Shown piece by piece: positions 53,654 to 55,848 of a stretch of DNA of 64,000 nt. Every line of letters begins with the position of its first letter. Position 1 is the first letter of the stretch. The position numbers were made by a program, and so were the translations under genes. Under the pieces are notes generated by a model. That model made no database searches, was not told where the DNA came from, and saw only the letters and a list, made by a program, of their open reading frames with translations. The DNA comes from Buchnera aphidicola str. Ua (Uroleucon ambrosiae) (lineage in GTDB: Bacteria; Pseudomonadota; Gammaproteobacteria; Enterobacterales; Enterobacteriaceae): assembly GCF_000225465.1 (NCBI RefSeq), contig NC_017259.1, positions 62,001 through 126,000 of the forward strand, read 5' to 3'.

Positions 53654-53673
53654 TATATTTTATGGATATACAC

Positions 53674-55848
53674 ATGATTATTGTAACAGTTGTTTTACCA
53701 TATTCAATTAGACAAAATTTTAAATATTTTCTCCCTAATTATATGTATCCTATTATTGGGGGGCGTATTTTAGTACCATTTAATTCTAAAGATACAGTAG
53801 GTATTGTAATTGATTTTTATAAAACTAATAATGTCAGTCAATTAAATTTAAAATATGTCAAATCATTAATTGATACTAAATCACTTTACAATAAAATTGT
53901 CTTAGATATTTTAATTTGGATAAGCAAAAATTACCATTGTCCTGTTGGATATTTATTATTTTCTGTTTTGCCAAAATGCTTACGTACTGATTATATTCTA
54001 AAAGATATAGTTGTTTTAAAATGGAATATAACAAAAAAAGGTCAAGAGCTAGATTTAAACTATTTAAAAAATAGAAAAAAACAATTAAATGCATTACAAA
54101 TTTTAAAAAAAACTAGCATATTAGATACTGAATTAAAACAATATAACTTATCTAAATTTATTTTAAAAAAATTAGAAAACCAAAAATTATGTCAAATCAA
54201 TAGTATATGTTTAAAAAATCAATATAATTTTAAGATGAAAAAAAAATTTTTTTTAAATAAAAAAATATTAATAGTAATTAATGATATTTTAAATAAAAAA
54301 TGTTTTAAATCGTGGTTATTAACAAATATTACTTTATATATTAAAGTTAAATTTTATTTAGGTTTAATTAAAAAAGTATTGCATAAAAATATGCAAATAC
54401 TCATTTTAGTGCCTTATATTAAAAATATAAATATGATTGTAATATTTTTAAAAAAATTTTTTGATGTATCTATTAATGTATGTCATGCAAAATTAACGAG
54501 TAGACAATACTTAAAAGTGTGGTTGGATATAAAAAATAGTAAAAACTCTATTGTGATTGGTACAAATAAAAGTATTTTTTTACCTTTTTTAAATCTAGGT
54601 CTTATTATTGTTCTTGAAGAACATCATTTAAAATATAAAAATAAAAATCAATTTAGATATCATGTTCGGGATTTAGGAATATTCAGAGCATATAAAACAA
54701 ATATACCAATCATTTTAGATTCAAATACGCCATCATTAAAAACATTATATAATATTTTAAATAAAAAATGTTTTTATGTTAATTTAAATCAATATTATAC
54801 TATTAATAGACAAAATTATAACATTATTAATTTGAAAAAAGAAAAAATAAAATTTCGTTTATCTTTAACGTTAATTCATCAAATTTATAAAAATTTTAAA
54901 AATAAACAAGTATTATTAATTTTTAATAAGTTTAGTTTATTGTTTTTTATATTAACATGTAATAAATGTTCTTGGATATTTACATGTAGTTTATGTCGTG
55001 AATATATCGAAATAAAAAAATATTATAATATTTTATTTTGTACATTTTGTTTAATTCAGTTAGAAAAACCAAAATTTTGTTATGTTTGTGGAAGTGTTTC
55101 TTTAATTATTAAAAATATTAATTTAGAAGAAGTTAAAAATAAAATCAAAAATATTTTTTCAAATATTCCATTGTTGTTTTTATTTAATGAAAGTAAAATT
55201 TATAAGAATATATCAAATAAAAATAATTTTAAAATTTCTTTGCCTAATCCTTATATTATTATCAGTACAGAAGAAATTGTAGAAAATTATTATTTTCCTA
55301 ATGTGCAATTAATCAGTTTAATTTGTATTGATCATCATTATCTTTCTTTTCATTTACATTCTATAGAATATTTTGCACAATTTTACATGAACTTAAATCA
55401 ATTAACGCGATTTAAAAAAGAATCTTTAAAAATATTTATGCAAACATCATTATCTGACAATTTTCACTTAAAAGACATATATAATAATAGGTATCACAAT
55501 TTTTCTAATATATTGCTATCTATAAGAAAAAAATTTTTTCTACCACCTTGGAGTTTTCATAGTGTTATTTATTCTGAAAGTATAGATGCTGAATATAATA
55601 TTGCTTTTTTAAATTTAATTCGTAAAATTTTACAAAAGCAATCTAATAAATATAATATTTTTTTATGGTTTATAGGTCCTGATCATTCTATGAGATTAAC
55701 AAATAAAAATATTTTTTGTAATCAATTGTTAATTGAATGCTCTTCACGTTCTATTTTAAATTATTTATTAAATATATCTATTGATATAGTTAATATTTTT
55801 ACTATTTCAAAACGTGTAAAATGGTTTATAGATATTGAGCCCAATTAA
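53674..55848 (+). CDS. priA: PriA-like primosomal protein lacking helicase motifs
   Basis: The 724-aa length and colinearity with E. coli PriA (732 aa) are clear: the N-terminal MIIVTVVLP matches MPVAHVALP, and KVKWVLDVDP is echoed by the final KRVKWFIDIEPN. The eight zinc cysteines are all kept with native spacing (C429, 432, 438, 441, 456, 459, 469, 472). The ATPase motifs are gone: Walker A GVTGSGKTE reads NITLYIKVK (about 218-226), DEEH reads LEEH (314-317), SATP reads SNTP (350-353), and motifs V (GTQMLAKG) and VI (AGRAGR) are unrecognisable. I start at the ATG at 53674 (GGA upstream, exact match in length to DYLLP); another ATG is at 53662. It may keep a DNA-binding or restart-scaffold role, or be early in decay. 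Confidence 0.88.
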   Translation: MIIVTVVLPYSIRQNFKYFLPNYMYPIIGGRILVPFNSKDTVGIVIDFYKTNNVSQLNLKYVKSLIDTKSLYNKIVLDILIWISKNYHCPVGYLLFSVLPKCLRTDYILKDIVVLKWNITKKGQELDLNYLKNRKKQLNALQILKKTSILDTELKQYNLSKFILKKLENQKLCQINSICLKNQYNFKMKKKFFLNKKILIVINDILNKKCFKSWLLTNITLYIKVKFYLGLIKKVLHKNMQILILVPYIKNINMIVIFLKKFFDVSINVCHAKLTSRQYLKVWLDIKNSKNSIVIGTNKSIFLPFLNLGLIIVLEEHHLKYKNKNQFRYHVRDLGIFRAYKTNIPIILDSNTPSLKTLYNILNKKCFYVNLNQYYTINRQNYNIINLKKEKIKFRLSLTLIHQIYKNFKNKQVLLIFNKFSLLFFILTCNKCSWIFTCSLCREYIEIKKYYNILFCTFCLIQLEKPKFCYVCGSVSLIIKNINLEEVKNKIKNIFSNIPLLFLFNESKIYKNISNKNNFKISLPNPYIIISTEEIVENYYFPNVQLISLICIDHHYLSFHLHSIEYFAQFYMNLNQLTRFKKESLKIFMQTSLSDNFHLKDIYNNRYHNFSNILLSIRKKFFLPPWSFHSVIYSESIDAEYNIAFLNLIRKILQKQSNKYNIFLWFIGPDHSMRLTNKNIFCNQLLIECSSRSILNYLLNISIDIVNIFTISKRVKWFIDIEPN

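Follow-up and report, generated by a model that had tools for sequence, protein, structure and literature searches.

A Buchnera aphidicola priA gene that probably encodes a selection-maintained scaffold without a helicase motor

Introduction

Two described systems are closest to a PriA protein without a motor. PriA of Deinococcus radiodurans has poor Walker A and Walker B motifs, shows no measurable ATP hydrolysis and negligible unwinding, and binds single-stranded DNA (ssDNA), forks, and DnaB (PMC4504706). In Escherichia coli, K230R alone reportedly abolishes the ATPase of PriA (PMC4504706), and ATPase-dead K230R/K230A (priA300) protein still supports primosome assembly (PMC4504706, PMC10175261); PMC10175261, like PMC9713433, PMC13377028, and PMC5574713 below, is cited for excerpts of its text. 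Here, we analyzed a 64,000-nucleotide stretch (“the window”) of the 628-kb, three-contig genome of Buchnera aphidicola str. Ua (contig NC_017259.1, positions 62,001 to 126,000), in which a sequence-only reading had described a priA gene with an intact zinc domain and no recognizable helicase motifs, and had proposed a scaffold without ATPase. The observation was confirmed and the interpretation partly supported. A literature search limited to open-access full texts listed no report of motif loss in Buchnera PriA.

The likeness to D. radiodurans is that of a PriA ortholog as a scaffold without a motor, a demonstrated one there and a probable one in Buchnera. D. radiodurans, however, belongs to another phylum and is without clear PriB or DnaT homologs (PMC4504706), whereas DnaT was matched in all 36 Buchnera genomes analyzed; its Walker A lysine is an arginine, whereas 26/27 unbroken Buchnera copies keep the lysine, and the glycines and threonine around it have been lost. 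Buchnera PriA is a case separate from the known D. radiodurans pseudohelicase, in a genus with DnaT, and the different phylum makes it very likely that the two motor losses were independent. The E. coli priA300 allele, for its part, is a point mutant in a cell having both PriB and PriC, whereas in Buchnera PriC was not found and no PriB match passed the threshold. Compared with the E. coli preprimosome as excerpted (PMC13377028), PriA, DnaT, DnaC, and DnaB are common to both, and the zinc region and C-terminal domain are conserved; in contrast, no PriB was identified, the PriB-docking residues D438, T482, and H483 are absent, and the DnaT linker, in the 16 Buchnera genomes read, has roughly half the length and no clear acidic character.

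Results and discussion

The priA coding sequence (724 codons plus a stop) occupies positions 53674 to 55848 of the forward strand. The surrounding open frame begins at 53662 in the open reading frame listing and has no internal stop, which bears out the claim of a frame open throughout; the start is likewise correct, since the ATG at 53674 aligns with the GTG of 26 other unbroken Buchnera copies (26/27). Over its full length (residues 7 to 727) the protein is colinear with E. coli PriA (8fak; phmmer, E=2.8e-100). The TIGR00595 priA profile scored 244 bits against a cutoff of 230, and NF004065 scored 476 bits, under its cutoff of 858; a Pfam DEAD match still passed (29.5 versus 26 bits), and the short Pfam PriA zinc-ribbon model had no match in this genome (0/1), though the eight cysteines are present. 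In a predicted structure model the fold is still that of PriA, and the best structural matches were all PriA. By its full-length colinear homology, domain order, eight spaced cysteines, and genus-conserved neighborhood, the gene is priA. Its origin from Buchnera aphidicola is borne out by the two small contigs of the genome, which resemble Buchnera leucine and tryptophan plasmids: the eight records listed for each were all from B. aphidicola, with identities of 79-81% (leu-type) and 73-76% (trp-type), and Buchnera accounted for 65 of 87 and 46 of 57 matching records, respectively.

The helicase motifs of this protein are largely replaced. GVTGSGKTE has become NITLYIKVK (54325 to 54351), DEEH has become LEEH (54613 to 54624), SATP has become SNTP within a motif III relic, DSNTP (54718 to 54732), GTQM of motif V has become STEE within STEEIVEN (55264 to 55287), and motif VI is reduced to LTRF (55402 to 55413). 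Walker A has accordingly lost its glycines and its threonine, Walker B its aspartate, and motif VI both arginines (now L and F), so that the sequence marks of an active superfamily 2 (SF2) helicase (GxGKT in Walker A, DExH in Walker B, and the arginines of motif VI) are absent. The earlier statement that the motifs are all gone was right about these replacements and too sweeping otherwise: the Walker A lysine (K228, equivalent to E. coli K230), EEH, the S, T, and P of motif III, and the T of the largely changed motif V remain. Misalignment as a cause of apparent loss was rejected, as phmmer and two MAFFT alignments agreed and upheld the placement of the motifs; a literal search for AGRAGR matched no row, so the motif VI call rests on phmmer and one of the MAFFT alignments. 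All eight zinc cysteines (C433 to C476) stand at exact E. coli spacing by phmmer and alignment, as had been read.

The same pattern extends across the genus. All 36 Buchnera genomes had a priA match, with 27 copies unbroken and 9 frame-broken. GSGKT is missing from all 27 unbroken copies, which share, with variation, a new consensus of NL-YxK(V/I)KFY, (L/F)EEH, LDSxTPSL, and TTExxV, and the motif III glycine is aspartate in 27/27; as a control, Rep retains GSGKT in the 26 genomes checked. The eight cysteines are found in 27/27 unbroken and 9/9 broken copies, and the remaining cysteines of the window protein vary across the genus. Positions equivalent to E. coli G229, D320, and R587 are highly variable (entropy of 2.84, 1.97, and 2.08 bits), leucine stands in place of R584 and G227, and in the predicted model a helix covers part of the former P-loop. 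Buchnera PriA is thus very probably without ATPase, to judge from these replacements, and the combination of a helicase fold kept in the predicted model, catalytic motifs lost, and purifying selection in spite of that loss is the one expected of a pseudohelicase.

Selection acts along the whole length of priA, somewhat less strongly than on control genes. The ratio of nonsynonymous to synonymous substitution rates (omega) was estimated under the GY+F3X4 model with a 27-taxon tree kept fixed (nth 26, tyrS 27, rep 26) and came to 0.133 for the 3'-binding domain, 0.182 for the winged helix, 0.134 for lobe 1, 0.126 for lobe 2 without the zinc region, 0.112 for the zinc region, and 0.145 for the C-terminal domain, against 0.075 for nth, 0.070 for tyrS, and 0.087 for rep. 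An omega of 1 was rejected for every domain (twice the log-likelihood difference, 151 to 856). Across five closer pairs, whole-gene NG86 omega was 0.19 to 0.37 at synonymous divergences of 0.22 to 0.43; these pairwise estimates are noisier, with the NG86 ranges of nth (0.16 to 0.44) and tyrS (0.08 to 0.22) overlapping that of priA and with a 30-codon winged-helix remnant exceeding 1 in two pairs. When the window's priA was evolved neutrally to 0.05 substitutions per site, copies acquired a mean of 8.2 stops and none of 300 was stop-free. The suggestion of selection for a protein without ATPase, rather than random decay, is therefore upheld by GSGKT in 0/27 copies, omega of 0.11 to 0.18, and the cysteines in 36/36. 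The expectation that low ratios would be limited to the zinc region and the 3'-binding domain is not: both lobes are as constrained as the 3'-binding domain, and 34 of 193 positions of lobe 1 are invariant.

Genes for restart partners are unevenly kept in the genus. DnaT was matched in 36/36 genomes, and a DnaC-type ATPase (general IstB/DnaC Pfam model) adjoins dnaT in 36/36. Rep was matched in 35/36; in the exception, G029, the match is weak and inside a 1184-residue frame, and none is full-length. Profile searches of the 36 genomes found neither PriC nor RecA (0/36 each) and no PriB above the 72-bit cutoff (0/36); subthreshold PriB matches of 24.6 to 28.3 bits occur in all 36, and the sole one examined, from the window's genome, is SSB. 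PriB has likely been lost from Buchnera; what is strictly shown is that no match passes the threshold. Its docking residues on E. coli PriA include D438, S481, T482, and H483 (PMC10175261, in part); in the unbroken Buchnera copies D438, T482, and H483 are each found in 0/27 and S481 in 7/27. Of the E. coli PriA-PriB-DnaT pathway, DnaT and DnaC are thus present, whereas PriB and its docking site are not found. The E. coli DnaT linker is said to dock on PriB (PMC13377028, in part). With boundaries set by the analyst, this linker has 15 to 17 residues and a net charge of −1 to +4 in the 16 Buchnera genomes read, compared with 30 residues and −3 in two enterics and 27 to 35 residues and +2 to +10 in five Buchnera-like genomes outside the genus. 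AT-rich composition alone favors lysine, so the shortening is more telling than the charge shift.

Lost motifs, a retained predicted fold with its zinc ligands, purifying selection over the whole protein, and the constant presence of DnaT and DnaC-type matches together lead us to favor the view that priA encodes a PriA pseudohelicase, a fork-recognizing, zinc-stabilized scaffold without ATPase that is kept by selection and probably supports motor-free DnaB loading. That function is the most likely one. What has been kept serves to hold the fork and recruit DnaT; what has gone is the motor and the docking site for PriB. PriA would hold the 3' end and encircle the lagging-strand ssDNA, with DnaT docked, as it is in E. 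coli, on lobe 2 and the C-terminal domain; DnaC-DnaB would then be brought in by DnaT, upon which replication would restart. Since it could not unwind, PriA would be restricted to forks with a lagging strand that is single-stranded from the outset or that another helicase, such as Rep, has opened; the retention of Rep in nearly all genomes agrees with the importance reported for it in cells carrying priA300 (PMC9713433, in part). If so, evolution has uncoupled the scaffold job of PriA from the motor job, across the divergence of a whole genus. Should the Buchnera proteins indeed load DnaB without PriB, they would form a smaller restart primosome than that of E. coli, useful for minimal-genome design and for understanding symbiont replication without RecA.

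A broader version of this proposal we hold more tentatively, as possible but open to real doubt: that Buchnera runs a pared-down restart primosome without PriB, PriC, RecA, or ATP-driven PriA unwinding, that the dead ATP site has been rebuilt as a conserved element (YxK(V/I)KFY, LDSxTPSL, and TTE) locking the lobes or forming an interface, and that motor loss with scaffold retention has been repeated in separate insect-symbiont lineages. Among Buchnera copies, what used to be the motif windows show slightly higher conservation than the remaining lobe sequence (0.88 versus 1.22 bits; circular-shift p=0.045), if unevenly so (motif III, 0.30; V, 0.75; IV, 0.84; II, 0.99; I and VI, 1.15 bits). Some of the 11-residue stretches that rank as most conserved overlap what is left of motifs I, III, and V.

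Several observations weigh against the scaffold proposal. Nine of the 36 Buchnera priA copies are frame-broken, and two Buchnera-like genomes keep DnaT without a working priA (decayed in G053, none detected in G134), so priA is dispensable in some lineages. Its omega is about 1.3 to 2.6 times that of nth, tyrS, and rep. Among 275 columns conserved across 36 intact PriA rows, 164 vary freely in Buchnera, and a loss specific to the helicase motifs was not borne out (10/39 such columns kept in motifs versus 80/236 elsewhere; Fisher p=0.36). The sequence-only reading had also appealed to the ATPase-dead E. coli protein, an analogy that holds in part: priA300 is tolerated with PriB present, but is severe in a priB deletion (PMC9713433, in part), and DnaB loading in the K230A assay depends on PriB concentration (PMC10175261, in part), whereas no PriB was identified here. 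The Buchnera proteins must therefore interact without PriB, or restart must rarely be needed, and a paradox becomes testable, a dead PriA without PriB being severely defective in E. coli. Finally, S481 and T482 show no variation among nine intact PriA rows, and D438 and H483 are each kept in 4/9; as the latter two vary in intact relatives too, they say little about loss of the PriB dock.

Much of this would be expected under slow decay, in which weak selection on restart cost priA its ATPase, the remnant is marginally useful, and the gene is departing many lineages. The frame breaks speak for it, among them the three in G008, as do the raised omega and freed columns and the two Buchnera-like genomes. 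True decay, as in G053 (L156) with 12 stops within a 240-codon priA stretch, differs from the state of the broken Buchnera copies. Yet neutrality is rejected in each domain, lobe 1 shows no relaxation compared with the remainder of the protein, and the eight cysteines persist in every Buchnera copy. The earlier note had named uniformly relaxed ratios with frameshifts in sister strains as the finding that would count against its idea; frameshifts do occur, but omega is far below 1. Nor do the broken lineages diverge faster, the median priA/control ratio of terminal protein branches being 1.68 for the 9 broken and 1.87 for the 27 unbroken copies (p=0.20). Eight of the nine broken copies have a single break, each overlapping an A or T run of 9 to 12 nt (rough chance product, 5e-10 with 30-nt windows, the G009 junction being 61 nt wide), and those of G002, G035, G007, and G018 lie at about the stretch matching an A9-T8 tract at 54238 to 54254. 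The placement of the eight single breaks on such runs mainly reflects a hotspot of mutation, perhaps with assembly errors among them; the breaks may be young, or some may be bypassed or be assembly errors. Transcriptional slippage rescuing broken frames is possible; slippage at A/T runs is reported in Buchnera, without a restored frame in the excerpts available (PMC5574713). On balance we regard slow decay as unlikely, though it deserves serious consideration. We give little credence to a protein selected for a role other than DnaB reloading, such as fork capping, limiting over-replication, or origin work with DnaT: with no RecA or PriC match and no above-threshold PriB, restart cannot follow the E. 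coli pathway in its described form, and DnaT persists in the two genomes without a working priA, but the preserved 3'-binding domain, zinc region, LPPW domain, DnaT, and DnaC are E. coli restart parts. It is most improbable that the ATP site still binds nucleotide or hydrolyzes it in an unusual way through the retained lysine, EE, and TP. The E. coli K230 equivalent is kept in 26/27 copies and that of E322 in 27/27, and S356, T358, and P359 are conserved at 1.00 in the genus rows, but the glycine, aspartate, and arginine positions of the site are variable or leucine, a predicted helix lies over part of the P-loop, and K230R is sufficient to abolish ATPase in E. coli (PMC4504706).

The domains follow one another along the forward strand. 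The 3'-DNA-binding domain (residues 5 to 108; 53674 to 53985; Pfam PF17764, E=2.8e-19) keeps the equivalent of E. coli F16 in 27/27 unbroken copies and that of K61 in 24/27 and has lost that of D17, all three of which we take to be residues of the 3'-binding pocket. The winged helix (residues 109 to 197; 53986 to 54252) is the least constrained domain, with 0/89 positions invariant, and is shortened in nine unbroken copies (L026-L034), to 30 to 32 residues in 8/27 and to 56 in the ninth. Lobe 1 (residues 198 to 390; 54253 to 54831) is followed by lobe 2 (residues 391 to 628; 54832 to 55545), which includes the cysteine-rich zinc region (residues 431 to 480; 54952 to 55101). The C-terminal domain (residues 629 to 728; 55546 to 55845; Pfam PF18074, 27.7 bits, cutoff 26.9) carries the LPPW motif, of which LPP is invariant in 47/47 aligned rows. 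The gene is flanked by nth and tyrS, both of which were matched at the priA locus in 36/36 Buchnera genomes, some tyrS being cut by the locus end. In one genome (G014, L003) nth consists of two open frames, 195 and 77 residues long.

In a sample of the family, some PriA-model match was found in 148/149 genomes (128 over the cutoff), several of the weak ones falling in other, longer frames. Outside the window, at G000:C1:309929-310309, an 824-residue frame, probably a shortened Mfd, matches the helicase part of the PriA model. Among 20 priA loci retrieved from small genomes, 11 were set apart as altered, 6 are intact, and 3 are frame-broken or TGA-interrupted (L077, L081, and L082). Walker A is clearly gone from nine of the altered rows, and the other two (L086 and L087) are nearly intact; all 11 have the eight cysteines. 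On an rpoB tree of 29 genomes, a single-gene tree with long branches from which a 622-aa G136 fragment was left out, motor losses map to roughly three or four points separated by intact relatives, tentatively pointing to several independent losses among small-genome lineages. In G136 (258 kb; L081, L189), the priA and rpoB matches are interrupted by TGA alone, three times each, and under code 4 a 598-aa priA frame has all eight CxxC cysteines, which suggests that this genome reads TGA as a residue.
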